A DNA stretch of 24,414 nucleotides from IMG/VR virus record IMGVR_UViG_3300045120_000065, positions 1 to 24,414 of that record; one strand, given 5' to 3'. This document shows, in pieces, positions 2,845 to 22,987 of this stretch (position 1 is the first letter of the stretch; each line of letters begins with the position of its first letter). Position numbers and translations under genes: made by a program. This DNA comes from a virus. The notes below the pieces were generated by a model. That model was not told the origin of the DNA. It made no database searches and saw only the letters and a program-made list of their open reading frames with translations.

Positions 2845-3221
2845 ATACTGCAATCCGCACGGCTACGCCACAGCGTAATGGAGGCGAACAATTGCCAGAA
2901 CATCGGCAGAAAACTGTAGAGGCCGGACTTGCCACTTATCAAATGGTGCTGGCTGAACGTGACGCACTCGAAGTTAAATTGCGTGACGCCACCATGAAAA
3001 TCGAGGCACTGACTGTGCAGCTCGATAGTCTCAAAGGCGTCGTCAACATGATGGAGAGTACGTACCTCTCGACCAAAATGGAAATGGAGAACCGCGTCAA
3101 CACGCACATGGCACAGCGCGACGAAGCGGTATCCCGCACTGCGTCGTTAGAAACAACATTAGCGAATATCTTCGTCATGCTGCGTAACACAATTACCGAG
3201 CCAGAGCATGGAGCCACCTGA
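2841..3221 (+). CDS. Coiled-coil protein of unknown function
   Basis: A 126-residue protein dominated by heptad-like helix from about residue 24 to 110. Segments such as AERDALEVKLRDATMKIEAL and MEMENRVNTHMAQRDEAV alternate hydrophobic and charged positions in coiled-coil fashion. There is no signal peptide and no clear membrane helix. The ATG overlaps the preceding 47-residue gene and is preceded by GGAGGGG (2831-2837), a strong ribosome binding site. It is probably a homo-oligomeric scaffold or accessory protein. Function unknown. Confidence 0.65.
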   Translation: MNTAIRTATPQRNGGEQLPEHRQKTVEAGLATYQMVLAERDALEVKLRDATMKIEALTVQLDSLKGVVNMMESTYLSTKMEMENRVNTHMAQRDEAVSRTASLETTLANIFVMLRNTITEPEHGAT

Positions 3222-3843
3222 CGTGATCCGAAGACCGTGCATGGGACTGCCACCCGGTACGCCGTGTCCGACGCATCTATGGGGGACGTGGCCGAAGGAT
3301 TGTATCTGCTACCAAGAGGGGAATTATCCAATGGGACGCGATCGCTTAACGTGGATCGTCATCGGTATATTCTTCGCGGTTGCAACTATCTTGTTTACGT
3401 GGATTGCGATCGATCTTGCCTTCGGAGCAGACGTTGATACTTCGTGCATGACGAAGGCGCAAGCCGCAGCCAAGTACCCGCGCCAATGGCTCTACTGGCA
3501 CGGCGCTGGTCATTGTTGGGATAACCACGCGGGACATTACACCAGCCGCGTTGCCGTCTACGGTAAGCAAAACAGTTTAAAATTACCATCACCCAAACCC
3601 GACGCGAATGGTAACGTAGCGCACCATAGCGGCAGGCCAATCGAAACGATCGACGAGGCTAGACCAACGATCGCGTACCCGGCACTCATGAGTGGAGGCG
3701 GCACCGACGATACAATGCTGCAGCCGCAAGCCATGACAGATTGGCCGGTAATTATTGATTTTGATACGGAGCCTCCACGCTTTATACCGTGGCAGCAACG
3801 TATCTCATTCTTTGTGGCAACGGAAAATGAGGGCAAGCCGTAA
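3208..3843 (+). CDS. Membrane-anchored protein with Cys-containing periplasmic domain
   Basis: A 211-residue protein with one transmembrane helix at about 48-70 (LTWIVIGIFFAVATILFTW). It is followed by a soluble region that includes SCMTKAQAAAKYPRQWLYWHG and a GHCWDN pair. That motif resembles short Cys/Trp/His repeats in secreted hypothetical proteins of rhizobia-like bacteria. The N-terminal 41 residues hold four cysteines (C12, C20, C32, C34). The start at 3208 overlaps the previous gene by 14 bases and has only a weak ribosome site. An in-frame ATG at 3331 has AGAGGGG nine bases upstream and would make the protein begin just before the membrane helix, so the true start is uncertain. It lies immediately before the sorting-signal genes. 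Confidence 0.6.
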   Translation: MEPPDVIRRPCMGLPPGTPCPTHLWGTWPKDCICYQEGNYPMGRDRLTWIVIGIFFAVATILFTWIAIDLAFGADVDTSCMTKAQAAAKYPRQWLYWHGAGHCWDNHAGHYTSRVAVYGKQNSLKLPSPKPDANGNVAHHSGRPIETIDEARPTIAYPALMSGGGTDDTMLQPQAMTDWPVIIDFDTEPPRFIPWQQRISFFVATENEGKP

Positions 3844-3873: not shown

Positions 3874-4593
3874 ATGAAGAAACTTGTTGGAATGCTGGCA
3901 GCAATACCGCTGCTAGTTCTGGCTGGGGTACCAGCCGGTGCTGCGACGTTCAACCTATCAGGTTGTTGCGGGACAGGACCGTTTGGCACTGCAACCGGCG
4001 TTGATCTGGGAGCACAAACCGGATCGACGGATACCGTTGAGATCACCGTGCAGATGTCTCCGAACTTCATCCTCGACACAGGGTCGCACTTTGCGGCCAC
4101 GTTCTCGCTGGTGGGTACGGGACGTGTGAACGCGCTGAACCTCGACGCACTCAACGGAGGCAACCCGCCTAACTTCTTTGACACCAACACCCATCAGACG
4201 GTGGTCGCAAACTTTTACTCGAACTCGCCATTTGGCGCTTTCAGTGATGCGATTACCGGCAACTGTGGGTCGGGGTCATCGAGTGGCGGGTGCGGCACGA
4301 AGCTGGTGTTTGATATCACCAACTTCCAAGGCTTCGCCGCCGCGACCAACCTGTTCGATCAGCCTCCGGCTGGCGGACCTCTGTCATCGGTCTTCATGGC
4401 CGTTGACATCATCGACAACCAAGCTGGTGCGAACTACGGAAACACTGGCGCGGTTGGGCTGAGCCTAGCACCTGAAATCAATCCGCTTGGTTCACCAACA
4501 CCAATCCCCGGTGCTGTCTGGTTGTTTGCCAGCGGTATCGGTGGTCTCGGCGCGTTAATGCGCCGCCGAAAGAAGAAAGTGGTGGCTGCTTAA
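3874..4593 (+). CDS. Secreted VPLPA/PEP-CTERM-type sorting protein A
   Basis: A 239-residue protein with both ends typical of exosortase substrates. The N-terminus is a Sec signal peptide (MKKLVGMLAAIPLLVLAGVP, likely cleavage after A23). The C-terminus has the short motif PTPIPGAVW (208-216), a hydrophobic helix (about 216-229) and a basic end (RRRKKK, 230-235). In the PEP-CTERM/VPLPA-CTERM family this tripartite tail is recognised by a membrane exosortase that cleaves at the motif and releases or anchors the protein at the envelope, usually together with exopolysaccharide genes. The mature region (24-207) is Gly/Asn/Thr-rich, probably beta, with a CC pair at 31-32 and two Cys in a Gly/Ser loop. 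GGAG lies nine bases before the ATG. No exosortase is in the window, so host processing is inferred. Confidence 0.82.
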   Translation: MKKLVGMLAAIPLLVLAGVPAGAATFNLSGCCGTGPFGTATGVDLGAQTGSTDTVEITVQMSPNFILDTGSHFAATFSLVGTGRVNALNLDALNGGNPPNFFDTNTHQTVVANFYSNSPFGAFSDAITGNCGSGSSSGGCGTKLVFDITNFQGFAAATNLFDQPPAGGPLSSVFMAVDIIDNQAGANYGNTGAVGLSLAPEINPLGSPTPIPGAVWLFASGIGGLGALMRRRKKKVVAA

Positions 4594-4614
4594 TTCTTTC
4601 GGATCAAATAATAC

Positions 4615-4638
4615 CCGTCGCGCAATGTCGTGCGACGG
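4615..4638 (+). other. Hairpin between the two sorting-protein genes
   Basis: CCGTCGCGC (4615-4623) pairs with GTGCGACGG (4630-4638), with one G-U pair and a six-base loop. Only three T follow, so it is a poor terminator. It may protect or partly attenuate the transcript between the two sorting-protein genes. A perfect 10-base palindrome, TCTGATCAGA (4646-4655), follows and overlaps the AGAGG ribosome site of the second gene. Confidence 0.5.
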
Positions 4639-4666
4639 TTTCACTTCTGATCAGAGGTAACAAAGC

Positions 4667-5335
4667 ATGAAGAAACTTATGCTTGCGACAGTCGCGGTGA
4701 TGCTGCTGTCTGCTCCTGCTTGGGCAGATACCATTACCATGACTGCAAAGGTTGACGGCGTAACTGTCGCCGTCGATAGCAGTGCCGATGGGAACTTGGA
4801 CATCTCTGCCCAATCCTTCGGCCCTGCGTTCAACGTCAACTCCCTGAGCATCAATACGGAGACATTCTTAGCGGTCCCCGATCTGCTCAGCACTAACACG
4901 CTGAACGTCAACCAGTCAGTCGGTGGCAATCACCAGCTGACTATCGACATCAAGGGGTTCGGTCTTGCCGGTCCCAATGCGGTCGTAGCGTTGCTATCCT
5001 CGTTCAGCGTCACGGGCCTGACTGCTGGATGGTCTGCTCAGGAGCAGACGTTCATCAACGGTGTTCTGCTGGCCGATACTGGCGTATTCACCGCCACATC
5101 GGACAGTGCGTTCTCCGTCAACAATGCTGTCGTGACCGGGCTGTTCACGGCAGAAGCACTCTACACCATCAACTCAGTTGGCATTGGTCGTTTCAACGGC
5201 GGCATTGATATTTCCGCAGCCGAAACACCATTGCCAGCCGCGATCTGGGGCTTTGCCAGCGCGATTGGTGGTGCAGCTATCATGATGCGTCGCAGGCGGA
5301 AAGCTAAGTCCGCTTGGGATGTATCGCATGCGTAA
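4667..5335 (+). CDS. Secreted VPLPA/PEP-CTERM-type sorting protein B
   Basis: A 222-residue protein with a clear signal peptide (residues 1-20, ending APAWA before D21). Its C-terminal sorting signal is TPLPAAIW (187-194), a hydrophobic helix (about 193-207) and RRRRK (208-212). TPLPAAIW is close to the canonical VPLPA motif. The mature domain is Val/Ser/Thr/Asn-rich, likely all-beta, and has no Cys. It does not look like a simple copy of protein A, so the pair shares architecture rather than obvious sequence. The basic stretch is followed by ten extra residues (213-222), which is longer than usual. AGAGG lies about nine bases before the ATG. A tiny membrane-peptide gene overlaps the 3' end. 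Envelope display or release after exosortase cleavage is inferred from the family. Confidence 0.82.
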   Translation: MKKLMLATVAVMLLSAPAWADTITMTAKVDGVTVAVDSSADGNLDISAQSFGPAFNVNSLSINTETFLAVPDLLSTNTLNVNQSVGGNHQLTIDIKGFGLAGPNAVVALLSSFSVTGLTAGWSAQEQTFINGVLLADTGVFTATSDSAFSVNNAVVTGLFTAEALYTINSVGIGRFNGGIDISAAETPLPAAIWGFASAIGGAAIMMRRRRKAKSAWDVSHA

Positions 5336-5426
5336 GCTGCCGTCCCTGCATGGCGTAGTCACGATCATGCTGCTCGCATCTAGCGCGGGTCTCATGATCT
5401 GGCTCATCGCAGGTGGTGGTTTCTAA
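5319..5426 (+). CDS. 35-residue single-pass membrane peptide
   Basis: The reading frame starts at ATG 5319, or at ATG 5328 for a 32-residue form, and overlaps the last 17 bases of sorting gene B in another frame. The product begins MYRMRKLPSLHG and then has one hydrophobic helix (about GVVTIMLLASSAGLMIWLIA) and a GGGF end. The basic N-terminus suggests N-in topology. There is no strong ribosome site, so expression would rely on coupling to the upstream gene. It could be an accessory of the sorting proteins, but a chance open frame over a short stretch cannot be excluded. Confidence 0.4.
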   Translation: MYRMRKLPSLHGVVTIMLLASSAGLMIWLIAGGGF

Positions 5427-5449: not shown

Positions 5450-5455
5450 TTATGG

Positions 5456-5538
5456 CCCGCACGGAGGAGCTTTAAGCTGTAGGAGACTCAACACTCCCAC
5501 TACCGAAAGCGCCACAACCTCCGTGCGGGTTTCTTTTT
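5456..5538 (+). terminator. Long-stem structured terminator
   Basis: A perfect 12-base stem joins CCCGCACGGAGG (5456-5467) to CCTCCGTGCGGG (5518-5529) and is followed by TTTCTTTTT. The 50-base interior is itself structured: GCTTT (5469-5473) can pair with AAAGC (5506-5510), and GTAG/CTAC (5479-5482/5500-5503) can pair inside that. This makes an elongated hairpin rather than the compact hairpin usual for intrinsic terminators. It ends transcription of the sorting-gene unit. The ribosome site AAGGAG of the next gene begins directly after the U-run. Confidence 0.75.
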
Positions 5539-6029: not shown

Positions 6030-6122
6030 TCAGCAGCAGTTGCCATATCCGGAAAACCATACACCTATAATTACTCCGACGAGCACGATGATAATCATTG
6101 CCGTCAAGTTATAACCACTCAT
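6030..6122 (-). CDS. 30-residue single-pass membrane peptide
   Basis: The ATG overlaps the stop of the upstream minus-strand gene (ATGA), with GGTGAG a few bases before it. The product begins MSGYNLTA, has one hydrophobic helix (MIIIVLVGVIIGVWF) and ends SGYGNCC. The overlap, ribosome site and clean membrane helix make it likely to be a real tiny gene. It is the last gene of the minus-strand unit, next to possible lysis genes. A holin-like or inhibitor role is possible but unproven. Confidence 0.55.
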   Translation of the reverse strand: MSGYNLTAMIIIVLVGVIIGVWFSGYGNCC

Positions 6123-6541
6123 ACACTCACCGTAGCATCCGGTATGAACGGAAATGTAACCTCGACTTCATCGTCTGTAATTATCCCAAGATCTTCCATA
6201 AGGCCAGACGATATATCCGCAACCCGTTCTGTATCGACATGTGGTCCCCAATCCGCTGGGAACGCACGCAACACGACACCAGTCTTCGGAGCTCGAACGA
6301 GTGCCATTTCCGTTAGCAGCATTTCGCGCGGGTGCACATCGTAGTCCCAGCGGCAAGCGATGAAATGTACATTAGGATTTAACCGTCGTGCCAAACCACT
6401 TGTCCCTTCTGGCTGGTACGGCAAAAATAAATGCGGTGCCTCAGATACATTGTAGATGAATGCAAGAGGCTCATCCGGTGCAACGCCGGTATCCTTTGGT
6501 CCACCGAACCACGATACTCTGCCGACGAGATGTAATTTCAT
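6119..6541 (-). CDS. RlpA-like (double-psi beta-barrel) protein, tentative
   Basis: A 140-residue protein from the ATG at 6541, which overlaps the upstream stop (ATGA). It begins MKLHLVGRVSWFGGPKDTG. A later segment, FPADWGPHVDTERVADISSG, followed by LMEDLGIITDDEVEVTF has the layout of RlpA-type double-psi barrels, which read ...NDRGPx...RxIDLSxxAAxxLGM...V.V. That family binds or cleaves peptidoglycan glycan strands. There is no signal peptide, so it would act in the cytoplasm, in the virion or after holin release. A role in lysis or wall penetration is inferred from this resemblance and from the neighbouring secreted and membrane genes. Confidence 0.55.
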   Translation of the reverse strand: MKLHLVGRVSWFGGPKDTGVAPDEPLAFIYNVSEAPHLFLPYQPEGTSGLARRLNPNVHFIACRWDYDVHPREMLLTEMALVRAPKTGVVLRAFPADWGPHVDTERVADISSGLMEDLGIITDDEVEVTFPFIPDATVSV

Positions 6542-6837
6542 TTTGGCTGCGCTCTGCATTCGCTGCGGTAGATTGCTGGAACGAGATAATTACCAACCGG
6601 GTGCGACGTGAACCCTGGATCATCCGGACCCGTGGCAACGGCAATGGCCGGGTCACAGGACGTGCGCCGAACCAGATCAATGGCCATGGCAAGTGGCGGC
6701 ACGATCGCAAGCGGTACGGCGCGTGCAGGCTCTTGCGCGGGTGCCTCTTTGTAGACGCGGACGTGCGTGCGGTGCCGTGCCTCCGCAGTGGCCGGGATCA
6801 GCAGCGCAATCAAAACCAAGCCTGACAAGACTTTCAT
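6538..6837 (-). CDS. Small secreted protein
   Basis: A 99-residue protein with a clear signal peptide (MKVLSGLVLIALLIPATAEA, cleavage after A20), leaving a mature chain of about 79 residues. The chain is Pro/Ala-rich, with two Cys (61 and 95) that could form a disulfide. GGAGGT lies six bases before the ATG, and the start overlaps the upstream stop (ATGA). There is no lipobox, so it is not an obvious outer-membrane spanin lipoprotein. It is probably periplasmic, with a possible lysis or envelope role inferred from position. Confidence 0.6.
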   Translation of the reverse strand: MKVLSGLVLIALLIPATAEARHRTHVRVYKEAPAQEPARAVPLAIVPPLAMAIDLVRRTSCDPAIAVATGPDDPGFTSHPVGNYLVPAIYRSECRAQPK

Positions 6838-7113: not shown

Positions 7114-8481
7114 TCAATAGACGTAAGGCGCGCTCGGCGGTGTAAAATTGCCGGTAAATACGGCGCGTCCTTTGGTCAGTCTAAACTCGTCGACATTTCC
7201 GTTGAGATTGATCGGAGTAAATGTCCCAAGCTGCCCTATCGAAAATACGTCGGCGGCGGTTGTAATCGACGCGGACGCGGAGATTGATCCTTGGACCGCG
7301 AGCGTACCGTCGAAATAAATCTGCATCGCGCTACCGTACCGCTGGTATGCGTAATGATGCCAATTTGTATTGGAGACAAGGACCGCGCTTTGTATTCCGG
7401 TAAAAGCACTATCACTCGGTAACCAAAAGCCCTGCACGGTGCCGCTCGTATTCACATACAAGCCGTAACCGTTGGTAAGGGAACCATTATTTTTGCCGAA
7501 CAACGAATATTGAACGCCGGTCGCCGCAACACGCGCCCAAAAATCAACGGTAAAATCGCTCGCGCCGGGATTAAAGTCGGGAGCGTCGACATAGGCGATA
7601 TAATCGGGACCGCCCGCGAGAGCCAACGACGCGCCGCCGAACTTTGATTGCACGGTTGATAGTTTTGCATTGCCGCTGATGCCAGCCGATCCTTGCTGCC
7701 ACGGAGAGGAGTCGGGGATGGTGGTGCTGCCGTTCGCGCCATCCATGTGCAGCAAGAGTTTTGTGAAGCTATAGGGCGCGTCAGGACCGTATGGCTTTAC
7801 GTTTGCCGGACTAAAATTTTGCGTCCATCTGCAAATGCCCTTGGAGACACGAATCTCATCAATGTATCCCGAATAATTGTTCGCGCCTTGCGCTGCTCCA
7901 ATGCCGAGCGGGTTTGAATTGGGAAAGATTGAGCCTGAGATTGGCCATGTGCCTTGCAGCGTACCATTCTGAAAGGCAAACAGCGTTCCGGCTTTGCGAC
8001 ACACCGCGTAATGCGTCCATGTGTTGCCGATATTTGCACCCATGCCGAGGTTGTTCGCCATGTCGAACGAGGTGCCGTTCGAGCTAATAAAAATCTTGTT
8101 GCCGGTTCCGGTGTTATAGCCGAACAGCCAAGGGCAAATGGAGGTCGGAATATCGCGCGCGATGATGCAGCCAGCCGCCCCCCGGAACTCCCACCAATCG
8201 ACCGTAAAATCTCCTGCTTGAAATTCCCAATCAGAACTATTTGGAAACGTAATGTAAGAGTCGTTGTTCATCACGGTCGCGCCGTCGCTCGCGAACATTC
8301 CCGAGGGGCTTACGATTTGCGCGTTGCCGGCTGGTGTCCCGAGGCCGTGCATGGCGGGCGAATAATCTAAAAACTTTTTCGAGCCGACAGGCCCGGTGAA
8401 ATGCAGCAACAGTTTTGTATAAGCGTCGTTGCCAAGCGAGACGCCGCCGCCGAACAGCGAGGTTGTGTTTCCGGCGAGCAT
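7114..8481 (-). CDS. Twin LamG-domain adhesion protein
   Basis: A 455-residue protein with two concanavalin/LamG-like jelly-roll domains. Domain 1 (about 22-230) starts YTKLLLHFTG, contains DFTVDWWEF (91-99) and ends with DEIRVSKGICRW (208-219). Domain 2 (about 238-455) starts FTKLLLHMDG, contains DFTVDFWARV (309-318) and ends with DEFRLTKGRAVF (431-442). Such domains bind glycans or proteins and often appear in phage fibres. The start at 8481 is a TAATG overlap with the collagen-like gene, which also removes ten implausible residues. There is no signal peptide, so virion assembly is expected. A receptor-binding or tip role at the end of the fibre cassette is inferred. Confidence 0.8.
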   Translation of the reverse strand: MLAGNTTSLFGGGVSLGNDAYTKLLLHFTGPVGSKKFLDYSPAMHGLGTPAGNAQIVSPSGMFASDGATVMNNDSYITFPNSSDWEFQAGDFTVDWWEFRGAAGCIIARDIPTSICPWLFGYNTGTGNKIFISSNGTSFDMANNLGMGANIGNTWTHYAVCRKAGTLFAFQNGTLQGTWPISGSIFPNSNPLGIGAAQGANNYSGYIDEIRVSKGICRWTQNFSPANVKPYGPDAPYSFTKLLLHMDGANGSTTIPDSSPWQQGSAGISGNAKLSTVQSKFGGASLALAGGPDYIAYVDAPDFNPGASDFTVDFWARVAATGVQYSLFGKNNGSLTNGYGLYVNTSGTVQGFWLPSDSAFTGIQSAVLVSNTNWHHYAYQRYGSAMQIYFDGTLAVQGSISASASITTAADVFSIGQLGTFTPINLNGNVDEFRLTKGRAVFTGNFTPPSAPYVY

Positions 8482-9464
8482 TAGGCAAAGTTTCCAGAAA
8501 AGTTGCAGCAAATAACGCCCGCTGCTGTCACCGCGTACGAAATAATATCGGTCGCATTCGCGGTCGCCGTGAGTGTCGGTTTATTGCCTCCGGGAAATTT
8601 CCACGCGCTGCCCCATGTCGTGATTGCGCGGCTCCCGGTCGCATCCTGGTTAATATAGATCAAGCCCTTTTGGCCGAGCTTTGCATTGGTCGGATTATTC
8701 AACGTGCCGGTTGTGCTGTTGAGTGTCCACTGAAAGTCGATCCCGGTGTTAAAATCCGGCGTAACGCTCGACGCCACACCCAAGCTAATCATATTGGACG
8801 CGGACCAAATCGCTCCCGGCGTGAGCATTTTAGTCGGCGCGGAATTGGCGAGATACTCGGCGGCGGTCGCGGCGACGGGAGCCGGTACGGCGGCGACGGC
8901 GGTCTTAACGAACGCGGTCGTCGCGATTGAATTGTCGTTATCAGCCGCGCCCGGCGTCGGCGCTTGCGGATCGCCGGTAAATGTTGGCGAGGCAAGCGGA
9001 GCCGCGCCGATATTCGAGCGCGCCGTGTTGACGTTGGCGACGTCCGACAAGTTATTCGCGGCGAGCATATCGCCGGTACCCGCGCCAGCGGGACCGGCGG
9101 GACCGGTCGCTCCCGTATCGCCTTTTGGACCTTGCGGTCCGGTATTGCCTTGCGGACCTTGCGCGCCGGTATTGCCTTGCGGTCCTTGCGGTCCGGTATT
9201 GCCTATCGGTCCTTGCGGACCAACGGGACCGATGTCGCCTTGAAGCCCTTGCGGTCCGGTTGGTCCCGGTGGTCCTTGCTGACCAGTACCGCCCGGTCCC
9301 ATTGGACCAGGAGAACCTTGTGGACCCGGTGGACCAGCAGGTCCAACCGGACCCGGTGGACCTATTGGCGCAACAGCAAGCGTCTGGGTATCAGCAGTCG
9401 CGTTCTTGATAAGCGTAAAACGCGGCAGCCCACCAGAAAGTGTAAAGCGTTCACCGTCACTCAT
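8481..9464 (-). CDS. Collagen-like tail fibre protein 1
   Basis: A 327-residue protein. A short N-terminal part (1-34) is followed by a Gly-X-Y stretch at about 35-129 (units such as GPQGPQGNT), which should form a collagen-like triple helix. Next comes a fibre segment, [17 protein letters not shown]...NSIATTAFV (155-186), a motif common in phage tail fibres. A C-terminal 91-residue domain (237-327) contains [12 protein letters not shown]. The neighbour collagen-like protein has the same 91-residue domain, about half identical by eye. The ATG at 9464 overlaps the neighbour's stop. The protein is likely a trimeric fibre carrying the C-terminal domain as a head. Confidence 0.85.
9078..9362 (-). 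repeat. Gly-X-Y coding repeat in collagen-like gene 1
   Basis: About 32 consecutive Gly-X-Y triplets give a nine-base period. In the middle, three or so near-identical 27-base units encode GPQGPQGNT-type blocks. The repeats are prone to copy-number change by slippage, so fibre length may vary between isolates. Confidence 0.85.
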
Positions 9465-10210
9465 CAGGCAAACCCCGCTTGAAATGTGCAAGCAATATAA
9501 CCAGGACCATTTACTACATACGAAATAACATCGACCGCGCTCGGAGCCGACGAGAGTATCGGTTTAATACCACCAGGAAATTTCCAAGCCGATCCCCATG
9601 ACGTAATCGTACGCGCTCCACTTGTATCCTGGACGACCCAAATTATACCCTTCTGTCCGCTTTTCTGATTGATCGGCGATGCTAACGCGCGTCCCGTTCC
9701 ACCGAGCACCCATATAAAATCAAGACCGGCATTAAAATCGAGCGTCACGGTCGCAGCGTCGGCAACGCCAGCAGGAGCTGCCGCCGCCCAAACAATATCA
9801 GTCGTCAGTATTTTTTGTGCGACGTTGGCGCGATAGTCAGCAATCGTTGCAATCGTTCCTGCTGCCATCTTCGCCAGTGTAACGATGTCATCGGCAATGT
9901 TGCTGATAGCAACGGCTCCAATATTTGTCCACACTGCATTAAGGCGACCATAAAAACCACCGTCAGTCGGAGCCTCGCCCAAGCCACCCGGTGGACCGGG
10001 GACAGTGCTGGCAGCGCCTTGCGGTCCCGGTGGACCTTGCGGTCCTGTGTCGCCTTGAATACCTTGCGGTCCAACCGGACCCGGTGGCCCCTGTGGCCCG
10101 CCACCAGCCGGTCCCATCGGACCTATAGCGCCTTGCGGTCCCGGTGGACCCATCGGACCCATCGGTCCCGGTGGACCAACTGTTGGTATGGTAAGGGTCT
10201 GTTGACTCAT
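9464..10210 (-). CDS. Collagen-like tail fibre protein 2
   Basis: A 248-residue protein starting at ATG 10210 (ATGA overlap with the upstream stop). It has a short leader (1-11), Gly-X-Y repeats at about 12-66 rich in GPPGP and GPMGP, a spacer with a putative coil (around [20 protein letters not shown], 104-123), and the same C-terminal 91-residue domain (158-248, [12 protein letters not shown]) as collagen-like protein 1. It lacks the SPTFTG-type segment. The shared domain points to tandem duplication followed by divergence, or to two fibres sharing a head. Trimeric fibre assembly is expected from the Gly-X-Y region. Confidence 0.83.
10013..10177 (-). repeat. Gly-X-Y coding repeat in collagen-like gene 2
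   Basis: About 18 Gly-X-Y triplets, with one short break at GGGP. They use the same nine-base period as the neighbouring gene but fewer copies and mostly GPPGP/GPMGP blocks. Confidence 0.8.
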
Positions 10211-10581
10211 CGCGTCGTCCCTTGCACCACAGTTGCAGTACCTTCCCACAAGCGTTCTTGAAAACCGTTTGTCATTTCACGCACAATATCACTGACGTAT
10301 TCTCCCGGCATTACCTGCACAAGACTGTCTCTACCAATGATAACTGTAAACGCGCCATTAACAGCATCATTGATGACAATACCATTGCTAGGAGACCAAA
10401 CAGATACCAGTACTTCATTATCTGTTTCCTGACGACGTACTTCCATCATGATCGTTGAACCAGTCAGATCAATCGGCGTAAACGTACCATCACCGTTGTC
10501 AGTAGTATAAATAAACGGCACAACCCAATCTTCATTTTTAGCGATGTTCATCGTACCGCTATAGTATGCAGGACCGGGCAT
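10207..10581 (-). CDS. BppU-like baseplate/fibre accessory protein
   Basis: A 124-residue protein. ATG 10581 has GGGGG six bases upstream; a TTG at 10593 would add only four residues. The pattern [16 protein letters not shown]...[15 protein letters not shown] resembles the N-terminal beta domain of phage baseplate upper proteins (BppU type): a sandwich beginning with an input value, a linear 'LTG' strand and a GEY-type strand ([10 protein letters not shown]). It ends [12 protein letters not shown]. It lies between the collagen fibres and the tail spike, so attachment of fibres to the baseplate is the likely role. No membrane segment or enzyme motif is present. Confidence 0.55.
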
Positions 10582-14013: not shown

Positions 14014-15129
14014 TTACACCTTAGTCAACTGTTTCATAGCTGATACAGGTGCGGGTGTACTGAAATACAAATCTCCAAGAACAGCAACGTGACCAATCGT
14101 TGGCATAATATCATCTTCAACATCAGCCATGTCAAATGATATAACCCCTTCAGCTCCCATGACCGCAGAATATTTCCACGCGGTAAAGATTGTCTGTCCA
14201 GGAGCAGCATAATAAAATAGCATCTGTTCCACGCTTGCCTGAATAGCTGCCCTGATCGCTTCTGTATCTGGGACCAGATTAACAATATGCAGATCGACCG
14301 GGTAACGTACCGGCGACATCACGTAACATTCCTTTACCGTAACCGGACGCTTAGAATTAATGTACGTCGATACAACTTCAATATCTGAGCCCAGCGGAAA
14401 ACCTTCATTACTGGCACGTAAATCGTCCATCATGAACCGCACCGATACAGTCCCGATACCCATTTCACTTGCTGCCCACGCACGCGTCACTCCCGGCACA
14501 GCCAGTGCCCATGCTTCATAATCATAAGCGGCACCACCCATCGGCGGTTGCTGAATTCGTCGTAATACGCGCTGACGTAATTCGTCATCATTCTCCGGAT
14601 CAACGCCACCATCAATTAAAATTACCGGAGCCTCACCATCAACCCCGCTTATCCCAGTATCAAATGATAAAATATCACCCAGCTCCTTATTACCGTCCGC
14701 ACCAGCGTTCAGCGCAGCAACAGTTACCGGAACCCCCACGTCACTAGCAAAAACTTGCTCAGTCGTTTCATAAGGCCAACCATCAGCTCCAGATAATCTA
14801 CTGCCTTGCGGGATGACTACTCCATTCGTTCCTGTAACAGTAACAGTACCATTTGCAAACGTACCAACCTTTCTGCCAGTGCTGCCATCTGCATTTACAA
14901 GCCAGATATCAGCGTGACGATCGAGCCATTCATGCTCAGCAGTATCAGGAAGGAGCTGCAGCGTTACCCAATCGAGATAGCGCAGCGTCAGATGACAAAC
15001 CGCAGCCGTGCAATCCGCCATAACACGCAGCACGCTGTTGCCAACAAAAGATGCTCGACCAAGGCTTGTGGTAATTTCTCCACGAACCGTCTCGCGAACT
15101 TGCCGCAACGTTGGCGTTGTCCAGGGCAT
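14014..15129 (-). CDS. Baseplate J-like wedge protein (Mu gp47-like)
   Basis: A 371-residue protein from ATG 15129 (TAATG overlap with the upstream gene), beginning MPWTTPTLRQVRETVRGEI. The family features are an N-terminal helical part with LPDTAEHEWLDRHADIW (60-76), a beta segment with GVVIPQGSRLSGADG (about 102-116), and DPENDDELRQRVLRRIQQPPMGG (177-199), where Mu gp47/T4 gp6-like proteins read D.E.D..LR.R.L..... The length fits the family. It forms the baseplate wedge ring around the hub and links sheath contraction to fibre signals. Confidence 0.9.
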   Translation of the reverse strand: MPWTTPTLRQVRETVRGEITTSLGRASFVGNSVLRVMADCTAAVCHLTLRYLDWVTLQLLPDTAEHEWLDRHADIWLVNADGSTGRKVGTFANGTVTVTGTNGVVIPQGSRLSGADGWPYETTEQVFASDVGVPVTVAALNAGADGNKELGDILSFDTGISGVDGEAPVILIDGGVDPENDDELRQRVLRRIQQPPMGGAAYDYEAWALAVPGVTRAWAASEMGIGTVSVRFMMDDLRASNEGFPLGSDIEVVSTYINSKRPVTVKECYVMSPVRYPVDLHIVNLVPDTEAIRAAIQASVEQMLFYYAAPGQTIFTAWKYSAVMGAEGVISFDMADVEDDIMPTIGHVAVLGDLYFSTPAPVSAMKQLTKV

Positions 15130-15626
15130 TAGAACGTCCTTATACCATCCCACAAGTTTTGAAAGCGTAACTCAATCTGCAGCAGTGGTCCGCGATAAAC
15201 TCTAATCGCTACGTTTATTCTTTGCAACTCTGCCCGCGTTGCCGTTACATCGATACGACTGCACAAACGATTATCGATCATCGGTTGTAATGCAACGCGG
15301 CAGTACTGCTCAGCTCGAGCCAGCGTAGAACCTTCTTGCGCCTCTGCTGGAGTAATCTTAGCGCGGCTCAGCAGCCATATCTTAGCGCCAATAGGCCACC
15401 CGCTCCAAATAGTTTCAGCATCAAGATCACCCCACCAGCCGCAACGATCGGTGCCATCCGGATCTGGCAAAATATCATCTTCACCAGCCAAACCGAAAGT
15501 TAACAACGCTACCTTGACGATGTTAACAAGCTCTTCAGTTTCGTCAAGTGTAGAGTCAGGTTTGAGCAACCAGTCTGCCCAAATACCTGCAAGGTTCGTA
15601 ACGTTAACGACACGAACATCAGTCAT
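15129..15626 (-). CDS. Mu gp46-like baseplate protein
   Basis: A 165-residue protein with the gp46-family core: a long early segment containing VKVALLTFGLAGEDDILPDPDG, then RCGWWGDLDAE (61-71) and IWLLSRAKITPAEA (82-95), and a C-terminal helical-beta region ending ELRFQNLWDGIRTF. Mu gp46 is a baseplate wedge component equivalent to T4 gp25. Placement directly before gp47 and after the hub genes matches the order in Mu. The start overlaps the previous gene (ATGA). Confidence 0.85.
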   Translation of the reverse strand: MTDVRVVNVTNLAGIWADWLLKPDSTLDETEELVNIVKVALLTFGLAGEDDILPDPDGTDRCGWWGDLDAETIWSGWPIGAKIWLLSRAKITPAEAQEGSTLARAEQYCRVALQPMIDNRLCSRIDVTATRAELQRINVAIRVYRGPLLQIELRFQNLWDGIRTF

Positions 15627-18847: not shown

Positions 18848-20977
18848 TTATTCGAAAGAGTACGTGTTAAACGCGGTCACACCGCCACCAGCAATCGCAG
18901 CCTGTGGTGAACGATGTACGTTAACCGGGATAAACGGACTAGCACCCTTTTCCCAAACGCTACCGGGTTTGTTCTTGTCACCAAAATCTATGTCAACCGT
19001 TGCGGTGCCGGTACCACCAATTCCAGCAGCACGTAATCCTCTGTCGAGCATCTCACGATATCTGCGCGCACCTTCGTGACCGCCTGGACCGCCACCGAAA
19101 TCATTATACGTCTCACCGTAACGTACGATCTTACCACCTTGCCACCAGACATTCGGATCACTGCCGCTACCTTGATCGGTTGCACCATGCAGGAGATTAC
19201 TACCGCGCAACACAAAGTCCATTGCTTTATTCATTCGATCAAGACGTTTCGGATCGCGTTCGAGCGCCGCAGCTCTTGCTGCAAATTGTCCTGTCGTGCT
19301 GTAGAAACCACCTTCTAGCATATGCCTAAGCGACAACGGTGGCTTACCCTGCTTGGCGCGTTCAGAATTAATATAATCCGTACGGTTCGCCAAGCTTTCA
19401 AAAACAGCTGCCGGATCACTCTCATGTTCCAGCGTCATCATAGCCGCGACTTCTTTTCTTAAAGAAGGATCTTGTTCGATCTGCTCCTTAATAGGCGCAC
19501 GCCGTGCAGCCAAATAATCCGAACCAGATTTACCCTCCAAACTAGACTCATCAAGTCCCGGTGCCCCTCCACCACTATCTCCAGGTCCACCACGCGATCG
19601 GCCACCACCAGAAATATTAGGTCTGAATGTCATACCGCCAGTGCTGCCGTACGGACCTAAACCACCGCCCGTAACTCCAGGACGAAACATTATTCCGCCA
19701 CCTGCACCGCCACCTTTCTGATCCCATTTTTGAAACGTGTCGCGCATATCACGCAACAATTTATTCGAGTCCTTATCGGTATCCACAGTCTCTTGCACAA
19801 GCAAAGTCGAGCCAGGTTCGACTTCAGCAGCTTGAACCCCAATGCTCATCTGCTTCTCAATCCACTCCCACAATCCACCAGCCTTACCGCCTTCTGGTCC
19901 ACCGGGCAATTGACTATTCATACTATCAATAATTGCACGCTCAGTTCGCAAACCAACTTTCTTATCTTTTTCATCTTTCGGTTCGCCTTCTTTCTTCATG
20001 CCAGTCCATTTAGTCAAGAACTGATCTACCGAACTGAATGCCTTTACCACCCAATCAAATTCTTGCTTCGTCGTTGCCAACGCAGGCATAACATACGTAT
20101 TGAAAAAAGTTCTGAAATTATCTGCAAACTGGTGCGCCCGATCGTTAAGGCCATCGATCCCCTCTTTACCCATCATCTTATTAATACCGTCGATCATCGT
20201 GTACGCCATATCCGTCCACAAGCTAGTACCGATGGTCTCGAGGTTCGTCATCGTCTTGTGATACTTCGCGGCCTCACCTTCCTGAAATTTCCAAGGTTCA
20301 ATCAAACCTTCCATGCCAACTTTACCAGCTTCAAAGGCTGCCCGCGACATCCCCGTAACCGTCGGCAACCAAGCCTTGAACCGTTCACCTCCATTGTTAT
20401 ATGCCTGCTGCAGAACGTTCAACGCTTCCTGCTGCTTACCGGCATTCATCAACTGCCGAACTTGTTCAGCAAGCGCAGGACTGCTAGCTTGTAATGATTT
20501 ATAAAAAGAAGACGTTTCCTGTAACGCCAAAACTTCCTGTAACTTAGATCCGATACTCGCGATACCGCCAGAAGCTTCGTTCGCGTCAATACCAGCAGCA
20601 GATAATTGCGTACGCAAATTCTGCACGCTCTGAACCGTGAACCCAGTATCTGTAGCAAAATTACGTAACTGTAATTGACCCACAGCGAATACGTCAAGAG
20701 ATTTAGCAACAGCAGCAAATCCAACTGCAAGTCCACCGGCACCTAGTAACGTCTTAGCTATGCCCGCCGCAGCTTGGTCCATTGCCTTCATCGGACCGCG
20801 CGTATAATGTTCTACGATCTTACCAAACCGTTCAAACTCATTGGCAAGATTGTTGGTACCCTTGCCGCCAGCCTCGTTAAGACTGTTAATCTTAAGCTTT
20901 AAATTATCGACTTCCTTACCCAGCTGGGTAAAGAATGCCAACATTGCATCTGCATCGAAATTATTTTGCTGTGGCAT
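18848..20977 (-). CDS. Second tape-measure-like protein with a putative muramidase-type domain
   Basis: A 709-residue protein; the start is taken as ATG 20977 (GTG 20980 is also possible). Residues 1 to about 240 are clearly paralogous to the first tape-measure gene. Shared segments include LSAAGIDANEA (125-135), LALQETSSFYK (150-160), QLMNAGKQQEALN (175-187) and ERFKAWLPTVTG (198-209). A Gly-rich linker lies at 422-475. Residues 480-650 hold a helical domain with LRKEVAAMMTLEHESDPAAV (506-525) and SLANRTDYINSERAKQG. The Glu-containing helix and the following AxANR-like helix resemble SleB/lysozyme-type cell-wall hydrolases, tentatively. The end is VTAFNTYSFE. It is likely a virion protein in the tail lumen; the enzymatic part would digest the wall on entry. 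Confidence 0.78.
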   Translation of the reverse strand: MPQQNNFDADAMLAFFTQLGKEVDNLKLKINSLNEAGGKGTNNLANEFERFGKIVEHYTRGPMKAMDQAAAGIAKTLLGAGGLAVGFAAVAKSLDVFAVGQLQLRNFATDTGFTVQSVQNLRTQLSAAGIDANEASGGIASIGSKLQEVLALQETSSFYKSLQASSPALAEQVRQLMNAGKQQEALNVLQQAYNNGGERFKAWLPTVTGMSRAAFEAGKVGMEGLIEPWKFQEGEAAKYHKTMTNLETIGTSLWTDMAYTMIDGINKMMGKEGIDGLNDRAHQFADNFRTFFNTYVMPALATTKQEFDWVVKAFSSVDQFLTKWTGMKKEGEPKDEKDKKVGLRTERAIIDSMNSQLPGGPEGGKAGGLWEWIEKQMSIGVQAAEVEPGSTLLVQETVDTDKDSNKLLRDMRDTFQKWDQKGGGAGGGIMFRPGVTGGGLGPYGSTGGMTFRPNISGGGRSRGGPGDSGGGAPGLDESSLEGKSGSDYLAARRAPIKEQIEQDPSLRKEVAAMMTLEHESDPAAVFESLANRTDYINSERAKQGKPPLSLRHMLEGGFYSTTGQFAARAAALERDPKRLDRMNKAMDFVLRGSNLLHGATDQGSGSDPNVWWQGGKIVRYGETYNDFGGGPGGHEGARRYREMLDRGLRAAGIGGTGTATVDIDFGDKNKPGSVWEKGASPFIPVNVHRSPQAAIAGGGVTAFNTYSFE

Positions 20978-20980
20978 CAC

Positions 20981-22987
20981 TTACTCATAAGCAAACTGGT
21001 TCGACCGATTAATCTTCAGCGTATTAAATACCCCGCCCATTCCTGCATCAGTCTTCACACCTTCCGGCACGTTCTTCAAATTAACATTGAGGCTGGCATT
21101 CCAGGGACTGCTTGCGGCCTTCGCGCCTAACGCACGATCAATCTTATCTCGATCACCATGCGACGCTTCAACCGCAGCCACCGTTGATGCACCAGCAAAA
21201 CGTGTATCCATATCGGTAAGCTTGCGTCGCCTTGCACCATACTGATCGGCAAATATCGCAGTGCCGTCTGCCTTGTTATACGATCCCGGCACGATCGTCA
21301 TAACGTGCCCACCCGTCTGTCCAGGAGCAAGGATCTGACCTTGCGTCCCGCCATAACGACCGTGGAAATAAGTACTAACCATGCTGCCGAATGGATGATT
21401 AGGCGCGTTGATATCATCGGGGTTTAACTTCTCACCCCACTTATGCCACGACGTAGCAATAGCCGCACCCGTGGGAGGTTTGTAACCAGCAGATTTTACG
21501 TAACCAGCTGCGACCATTCCGCATGCTGGCCCGGACATGCGATAACCTTTTTGGCTAAACAATTTTTGCAAGCCTGCAACATCACCAGCGCGGCCTAAAA
21601 TTTCTGCCTGACGCATCGTCTCAGGATCTATCTTCTTGCCGCCTTCGTCGTTCAACCCAGCTGGGCCACCGGGACTAGCTTCACCACTGCCCCCACCGCC
21701 TCCAGCGCCTCCAGCGCCACCCCCACCGCCTCCAGCGCCTCCACCGGGTACAGCACCTACCCCACCTTGAATTTGATCATCCCACTTTTGAATAAGATCG
21801 CGCATATCCTGCAACGATCGATTTGAGTCTTTCTGTACATCGATCACTGAGTCAGGACTAAACGATCGCGGCTTTGCATTCTTTGGTAACGTCGCACCGT
21901 CACCGTCTTCACCACCAACCCCAAGTTGTTTTTTCAACCAATCCCATGGACTGAAGTTTTTATTCTGCTCGTCCTCATTTTGCCGGCGAATAAATTCTTC
22001 AGGACGTAACCTGCCGCCTTGTCCAAAATCACGAATGGTACCTTGCTTATTAAACCAATCGATAATTGCTTTAGCTTCCTCAAACGTCTCCTTCAATTTT
22101 GGTATAACACTATTATCAAAGTATGTCTTAAAATTATCCGCGAACTTATGCGCCTTCTCGTTCAACCCCTCGAGACCCTCACTACCCGTTAGTTTAACAA
22201 TCCCTTCCAAAACAGTATTCGTTACTGAAGTCCACACACCATCAAAAATTGTACCGAGGTTAACCATCGTCTTGTGGTACTTCGCAGCATCGCCATCGAG
22301 CTGCTGCCACGGCATTATCAAACCTTCCATACTTTGCTTCTGCGCCTCCCACGCAGCACGTGATATTCCAGTCACTGTCGGTAGCCAAGACTTAAACCGT
22401 TCGCCACCGTTATTAAATTTCTCCTGCAGATAGTTCAGCGCCTCTTGCTGCTTACCAGCATTCATAAGCTGGCGAACATTCTCCGCCATCGCCGGTTCGC
22501 TGGCCTGGAGAGCTTTATAAAATGACGACGTTTCTTGCAGCGCAAGAACGTCCTGCAGTTTAGCACCGATACTGCCGATACCTTGCGCCGCTTCGTTAGC
22601 ATCAATACCAGCAGCGGATAACTGCACCCGCATCTTTTTTAAACTATCTGTCGCAAAGCCAGTATTGATCGCAAAATTTCGAGTGTGTAATTCGCCAACT
22701 GCAAAATGATCAAGCGCCTTACCGATACCACCGATGATCAACGCGAGCTTGACAACGCCACCAGCCGAACCAACTAAGCCTGCTAAGCCATCTTCCATGC
22801 CGCGCATTGATCCGCGAACATGGCGCTGGATCGTCTGACCAAACTGCTCGGTATGGTCAGTCATTTTCTTCATAGCACTGCCAGCCTCGTTGAGACTGAC
22901 AATCTTAACCTTAAAGTTATCTATCTCCTTTCCCATCTGGCCGAAGAAAGCCAGCATGGCATCGGAATCAAAATCCATGTCAGGCAT
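20981..22987 (-). CDS. First tape-measure-like protein with a putative cysteine peptidase domain
   Basis: A 668-residue protein directly behind the chaperone frameshift gene, the usual tape-measure position. The N-terminal part (about 1-315) is helical with a hydrophobic stretch (about 78-95). Segments GIDANEAAQGIGSIGAKL (127-144) and QLMNAGKQQEALN (173-185) are shared with the second gene. A Gly-rich linker (409-436) follows. The C-terminal domain (about 455-615) has GPACGMVAAGYVKSAG (486-501), with C489 as a candidate nucleophile, TGGHVMTIVPG (558-568), with H561, and DQYG (581-584). This order fits NlpC/P60 or CHAP-like peptidases that cut peptidoglycan stem peptides. An overlap of eight bases with the upstream gene supports coupled expression. 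Confidence 0.85.
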   Translation of the reverse strand: MPDMDFDSDAMLAFFGQMGKEIDNFKVKIVSLNEAGSAMKKMTDHTEQFGQTIQRHVRGSMRGMEDGLAGLVGSAGGVVKLALIIGGIGKALDHFAVGELHTRNFAINTGFATDSLKKMRVQLSAAGIDANEAAQGIGSIGAKLQDVLALQETSSFYKALQASEPAMAENVRQLMNAGKQQEALNYLQEKFNNGGERFKSWLPTVTGISRAAWEAQKQSMEGLIMPWQQLDGDAAKYHKTMVNLGTIFDGVWTSVTNTVLEGIVKLTGSEGLEGLNEKAHKFADNFKTYFDNSVIPKLKETFEEAKAIIDWFNKQGTIRDFGQGGRLRPEEFIRRQNEDEQNKNFSPWDWLKKQLGVGGEDGDGATLPKNAKPRSFSPDSVIDVQKDSNRSLQDMRDLIQKWDDQIQGGVGAVPGGGAGGGGGGAGGAGGGGGSGEASPGGPAGLNDEGGKKIDPETMRQAEILGRAGDVAGLQKLFSQKGYRMSGPACGMVAAGYVKSAGYKPPTGAAIATSWHKWGEKLNPDDINAPNHPFGSMVSTYFHGRYGGTQGQILAPGQTGGHVMTIVPGSYNKADGTAIFADQYGARRRKLTDMDTRFAGASTVAAVEASHGDRDKIDRALGAKAASSPWNASLNVNLKNVPEGVKTDAGMGGVFNTLKINRSNQFAYE

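Follow-up and report, generated by a model that had tools for sequence, protein, structure and literature searches.

The window analyzed here, a linear IMG/VR record of 24.4 kb (50.8% GC) taken at its full length, carries two tandem genes, VP1 (P0001) and VP2 (P0002), which together form the cassette under study. The features on which our argument draws are as follows.

3208..3843, + strand: conserved gene with an internal hydrophobic segment, directly upstream of the cassette
3874..4593, + strand: VP1, 239 aa, comprising a signal peptide, a mature domain and a tail of PxP motif, helix and basic end
3874..3942, + strand: VP1 signal peptide (Sec), MKKLVGMLAAIPLLVLAGVPAGA, with predicted cleavage before A at an AxA site; hydropathy peak 2.32
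4501..4590, + strand: VP1 tail, VPLPA-CTERM-like, PIPGAVWLFASGIGGLGALMRRRKKKVVAA; matches TIGR03370
4615..4638, + strand: weak terminator-like hairpin between the two genes (the count of such sites in the window does not exceed that in shuffled sequences)
4667..5335, + strand: VP2, 222 aa, comprising a signal peptide, an unrelated mature domain and a tail of PxP motif, helix and basic end
4667..4726, + strand: VP2 signal peptide (Sec), MKKLMLATVAVMLLSAPAWA, with predicted cleavage before D; hydropathy peak 1.91
5228..5332, + strand: VP2 tail, VPLPA-CTERM-like, PLPAAIWGFASAIGGAAIMMRRRRKAKSAWDVSHA, ending in a KSAWD extension; matches TIGR03370 and has a profile-profile match
5454..5531, + strand: structured RNA element downstream of the cassette, a strong stem followed by a T-run (z-score −4.4)
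14014..15153, − strand: baseplate J protein (PHROG 6, 205 bits), which gives both phage context and a host lead

Each gene is preceded by a purine-rich ribosome-binding site. A preliminary description had read both products as proteins with a Sec signal peptide at one end and a motif, helix and basic tail at the other, and the plus-strand open frames, the AxA site, the hydropathy (taken as the peak over a 17-residue window) and the tails all confirm that reading. Both proteins combine the features by which exosortase substrates are recognized, namely an N-terminal signal peptide, a PxP-type motif, a single hydrophobic, uncharged helix and a basic end, with 6 K or R within the last 20 residues of each. 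A [KR]xAWD-type extension past the basic cluster is often found on second or sole genes, unlike first genes; such ends occur at 5300-5332 of the window and in L002, L004, L015, L016, L022, L024, L048 and L062.

The mature domains are harder to place. Pfam and PHROGs gave no significant family for either protein, and Pfam detected no enzymatic or carbohydrate-binding domain in them. The AlphaFold models were not usable (pLDDT 46.6 for VP1 and 36.7 for VP2), and a PDB fold search with them returned nothing significant; the modeled VP1 mature domain may be beta-rich, at low confidence. Full-length VP1 homologues in other viral contigs share 33-49% identity (alignment A7), and a VP2 homologue that is 85% identical lies in a podophage-like contig of 62% GC (L024). 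The two mature domains fall into different clusters, and the alignment of VP2 with the FxDxF phage family is confined to the tail (39 columns, E 1.2e-15, profile-profile), in keeping with the earlier judgment that they are not obviously homologous.

The genes around the cassette likewise uphold the view that this is phage DNA rather than host chromosome. PHROG profiles identify baseplate J, tape measure and RuvC genes, so that tailed-phage hallmarks surround the cassette, and a 50.6-kb relative (G015) encodes terminase, portal, sheath, major head protein, DNA polymerase and thymidylate synthase. Several tail genes of G015 are 82-98% identical to those of the window. Its gene set is of virulent type, with no integrase found among the genes scanned. 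The window is a fragment of a soil-type myophage. Elsewhere in it, two consecutive large genes (18848-20980 and 20981-22987) have similar N-termini, and one of them matches the tape-measure family phrog_2276 weakly; judged by sequence, they are probably tandem tape-measure paralogues. The genes at 7114-8511 and 8481-10249 form a tail-fibre region, in which a Laminin_G_3/lectin-like domain (PF13385, 93 bits) accompanies collagen-like GPP repeats. A tRNA search of four large phage records found none in three and one tRNA-Met in G021.

The immediate flanks of the cassette are also partly shared among relatives. The gene at 3208..3843, for which Pfam has no match, lies upstream of or near the cassette in many of them. 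The hairpin at 5454-5531 follows the cassette in several myophage-lineage relatives as well, its inner stem shows paired changes among relatives (CGGAGG/CCTCCG and CGAAGG/CCTTCG), and Rfam has no match for it. A small overlapping ORF (5328-5426) encodes a 32-aa hydrophobic peptide ending in MIWLIAGGGF, an ending that recurs behind the L015 cassette. Farther downstream, the gene at 6119-6559 belongs to a family (WFGGPxDxGVAPDEGLAFIY) without a Pfam match that is common to the myophage, podophage-like contigs and a Bradyrhizobium prophage.

To which sorting class do the tails belong? The VPLPA-CTERM model TIGR03370 spans positions 2-25 of its 25 on both, at 19.5 bits for VP1 and 15.1 bits for VP2 (E-values of 7e-4 and 0.018 when the whole library of 18,950 models is counted, or of about 4e-8 and 1e-6 as a single model), and a six-frame search of the window raised the VP1 tail to 23.7 bits (E 2e-6). 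The expectation that family HMMs would recognize both proteins was thus borne out in part. The whole model is covered and relatives pass, but VP1 and VP2 themselves miss the curated cut-off of 25.35 bits, and we therefore call them VPLPA-CTERM-like rather than certified members. Neither matches the FxDxF PEP-CTERM model NF038126 (cut-off 50 bits). Among the relatives, L082 passes both TIGR03370 (32.8 bits) and NF038126 (63.7 bits), and L094 (63.8 bits) and L011 (51.6 bits) also pass the latter. By these profile scores, the relatives settle the tail class as being of the VPLPA/PEP-CTERM kind.

It is useful to set the cassette beside the known systems. With VPLPA-CTERM/XrtD (TIGR03370/TIGR04152) it shares the signal peptide, PxP motif, hydrophobic helix, basic end and whole-model match, and in Rhizobiales genomes the matches to the phage tail profile go together with XrtD. 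It differs in being phage-encoded without an exosortase, in the sub-cut-off scores of VP1 and VP2, and in that phage tails mostly have W-x-F after the motif. The bacterial PEP-CTERM/EpsH system has the same architecture and similarly diverse mature domains, mostly without a Pfam match, with the host enzyme encoded in exopolysaccharide loci (PMC1569441). Its known substrates are, however, bacterial chromosome genes, mostly in single-gene operons, whereas here they are tandem phage genes. Finally, the FxDxF family (NF038126) supplies the second-gene mature domain in many relatives, three phage proteins exceeding its cut-off, but VP2 lies outside that family, and certain of its phage members end in a VPGP or PEPxxWA-like tail.

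The preliminary description had asked whether other phages carry the same architecture, and dozens of IMG/VR relatives do. Scanning IMG/VR with VP1, VP2 and derived profiles yielded 59 further contigs. A tail profile built from the phage tails themselves (A5) matches an ORF in 43 of the 60 contigs including the window, some of which are near-copies and not independent. Two A5-matching ORFs, mostly adjacent, share a strand in 21 of the 60, and four more contigs (L069, L077, L078, L084) have pairs with other tails. A survey of the 3,067 distinct ORFs in the viral contigs that reach 100 aa showed the tail architecture in 45 that A5 had already matched and in 19 others. Fourteen of the latter have a signal peptide, and every one of these fourteen is of the same kind, with a VPGP- or PxP-type tail; of the five that lack one, that in L078 is of this kind too and the others look spurious. 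Such an architecture seldom arises by chance, and viral contigs contain more of it than chance provides. The AxA site is kept in 41 of 42 complete family members, whose signal peptides were part of the rule used to call them. The cassette occurs in at least two unrelated phage types, contractile-tailed contigs and podophage-like contigs that have phrog_332 head-tail adaptors and a GC content of 60-62%. A tblastn search of INPHARED (50,697 deposited phage records) with VP1, VP2, an FxDxF relative and a consensus tail found no match; there is therefore no isolate phage or named host to hand. Plasmids gave no match for an FxDxF relative, and a scan of some 85,000 species with profile A2, limited to two short patterns, found no bacterial relative of one mature-domain family. 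The presence in phages of paired exported proteins bearing an exosortase tag suggests borrowing of a host pathway.

The two ends of these proteins evolve differently. In related pairs the mature domains, with dN/dS of 0.02-0.14, experience strong purifying selection. Past the PxP motif, identity at the DNA level drops to 29-69% in most pairs compared, while the tail type stays; the tails are still related in L016/L017 and L002/L004, as expected if exchange is occasional. In the slot that the window's cassette occupies, G015 has a pair with different mature domains, and the VP2 mature domain is 93% identical between the window (50.8% GC) and the podophage-like G023. A VPGPxxGAGLP tail is found on the FxDxF mature domain as well, and so, at 8001-8591 of L088, is a PEPxxWA-like tail representing a third sorting class (NF035944 at 21.7 bits, under its cut-off of 35). 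The L014/L018-type mature domain carries a PIPGAVWLF tail and, in L069, a VPGP tail, the latter judged by similarity near the end only. At least one mature-domain family, as read from these sequences, also occurs with a different tail class. Related mature domains are carried with VPLPA-type, VPGP-type or PEPxxWA-like tails, and both genes of each complete pair keep to one class (in L069 the second tail is incomplete). As a source of the variable tails we also weighed a diversity-generating retroelement; no adenine-specific pattern was apparent by eye in the alignments, and we therefore prefer recombination as the route of exchange. A tentative proposal, for which we stop a little short of even confidence, is that this is a mobile cassette of paired surface effectors whose tail module is swapped to suit the C-terminal sorting enzyme of the host, among soil proteobacteria.

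Such an enzyme would have to come from the host, since no PF09721 exosortase was found in 24 viral records; the same dependence had been anticipated from the window itself. A lead to that host came from the gene at 6119, which led to a prophage of Bradyrhizobium sp. SRL28. The baseplate J proteins are 54% identical, and the next best match is 38-41% in a sample of 349 Pseudomonadota genomes. The SRL28 prophage has no such cassette within the stretch read. It is the closest cellular relative found, which we take as a host lead and not as a finding. Of 196 Bradyrhizobium genomes, 25 have an exosortase. Judged by the length of the open frame, 23 of these enzymes are short, the single one tested being XrtV, and two are long, both of them XrtD (547 and 541 bits, cut-off 400). 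When A5 was run on 60 Bradyrhizobium genomes, it matched only in the two XrtD-positive ones, and in one of these, xrtD, prsT and exopolysaccharide genes are located some 5 kb away from the substrates. A5 tails were also found in 10 of 347 Rhizobiales genomes, four of which have XrtD over cut-off. Together with the two Bradyrhizobium genomes, XrtD exceeds its cut-off in 6 of 12 tail-positive genomes and in none of 51 tail-negative ones (Fisher p 1.4e-5; genome samples were even draws). Of the six tail-positive genomes without XrtD, some of which are drafts, two have spurious-looking matches (G234, G500), one encodes a different exosortase (G495), and three yielded none. As to whether the host has an exosortase, then, XrtD is present in relatives of the plausible host group, and the host itself stands as a lead.

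Against this lead stands the form of the tails, which in Rhizobiales are mostly of the PAALPLF type, while most phage tails have W. The FxDxF family was tried as a host marker; its Bradyrhizobium matches involve mostly the C-terminal part of the profile and fall below cut-off, so the family does not mark the host. The VPGPxxGAGLP-helix-RRR tail (phage loci L068, L071, L074, L078, L080, L084 and L090-L092) occurs in 5 of 297 Rhizobiales genomes (loci L172-L181), on diverse exported proteins and in several copies in most of the five. None of the five has a PF09721 exosortase, which points to another enzyme. This tail is possibly an unrecognized sorting signal of such an enzyme, and not every phage of this kind need use an exosortase.

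In the published PEP-CTERM/EpsH model, a protein is exported by Sec, its C-terminal helix anchors it in the inner membrane with the motif in the periplasm, and the exosortase cuts at the motif and passes the protein outward (PMC1569441). VP1 and VP2 have, on the evidence of their sequences, the features that this processing needs. The core of the preliminary description, exosortase-type substrates in a phage, is supported by the tail profiles, the relatives over cut-offs and the phage contig, and processing would follow the bacterial scheme. We consider it fairly probable that the phage makes proteins that a host exosortase places on the surface or in the matrix of the infected cell, with the tail as an exchangeable address. 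VP1 and VP2 would be phage cargo that the infected host exports by Sec. Each would stay anchored in the inner membrane by its C-terminal helix, its PxP motif lying on the periplasmic side. A VPLPA-specific host exosortase, of the XrtD type, would then cut the tail, and the mature domain would be passed to the outer surface or the exopolysaccharide layer, where the two domains may alter the envelope or matrix. The tail would act as an exchangeable address module, consistent with near-identical mature domains that carry different tails, including one of another sorting class. The likeliest purpose would be to fend off competing phages or to modify the matrix that surrounds the cell.

In the first case, superinfection exclusion, the displayed domains would mask or block receptors so that later phages fail to adsorb. 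We regard this as possible, if doubtful. The proteins would be directed to the surface, they are exchanged between phages whose hosts plausibly overlap, the same slot is filled by several mature-domain families, and G015 has a virulent-type gene set without an integrase among the genes scanned. However, the mature domain evolves under strong purifying selection and not by rapid change, the analysis turned up no receptor, fold or relative with such activity, and matrix modification fits a similar pattern. Under that second possibility, which we hold to be rather unlikely, the proteins would join the exopolysaccharide layer and change aggregation or the matrix so that progeny spread or persist better. 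PEP-CTERM/EpsH genes are indeed tied to exopolysaccharide loci (PMC1569441), and the Bradyrhizobium xrtD locus sits among exopolysaccharide genes. Some phage proteins weakly match the model of the flocculation protein PepA, far below cut-off, but these matches lie mostly on the shared tail region, and the want of an enzymatic or carbohydrate-binding domain in VP1 and VP2 also counts against this function.

Selection on the mature domains bears on the other explanations. If abundant tails served as decoys that saturate the exosortase and keep host proteins, which might be receptors or barriers, from being placed on the surface, one could understand why each phage has two tails and why the tail is the part common to otherwise unrelated proteins. 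Yet the tail alone would then suffice, whereas it is the mature domains that are conserved (dN/dS 0.02-0.14) and the tails that vary. The exported part therefore matters, which argues against pure decoys and makes them improbable. Unimolecular spanins need a lipobox cysteine. That VP1 and VP2 are lysis proteins of this sort, in which a periplasmic domain with a C-terminal membrane helix disrupts the outer membrane, agrees with their export signal, C-terminal helix and low-confidence beta-rich model, but we judge it very improbable: a loose lipobox pattern is present in 6 of 42 members (the VP1 match lies beyond the signal peptide) as against AxA in 41 of 42, the invariant PxPxAxWxF motif and the tandem unrelated domains are left unexplained, and the genes lie outside the late operon. 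Hardly credible, finally, is the suggestion that these are recently captured host genes without a selected role, for although the FxDxF family (NF038126) is one of bacterial PEP-CTERM proteins, many phages keep open frames with low dN/dS, the slot is conserved in diverged phages and the genes recur in unrelated ones, and one mature-domain family had no relative in the pattern-limited scan of some 85,000 species.

Surface placement by a host exosortase would differ from what is familiar in phages. As in superinfection exclusion and lysogenic conversion, the phage makes its host display or export a protein; but the phage-encoded surface proteins known to us use lipoprotein, membrane or Gram-positive anchoring routes, whereas here the exosortase route of a Gram-negative host would serve. 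To our knowledge, descriptions of exosortase sorting are confined to bacteria, which use it for surface and matrix proteins, and its substrates mostly lack known functions. In the open-licence literature we found no earlier description of phages with exosortase substrates beyond a passing mention, in which TIGR03118-type proteins with a putative exosortase-interaction C-terminus are listed among genes acquired by Yellowstone viruses (PMC11003980). That mention resembles our case in having such a C-terminus among virus-acquired genes; it is one sentence in a transfer survey, without a cassette, tail exchange, host enzyme or mechanism.

If phages do carry matched substrates under strong selection, the exosortase route becomes a place where phage and host interact. 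In that case the phage proteins would be small, testable exosortase substrates, and tail exchange would report which sorting enzyme the host of a phage uses. Should the mobile-cassette proposal also prove true, tail-swapped cassettes would represent a general phage strategy for surface display through the sorting systems of the host.
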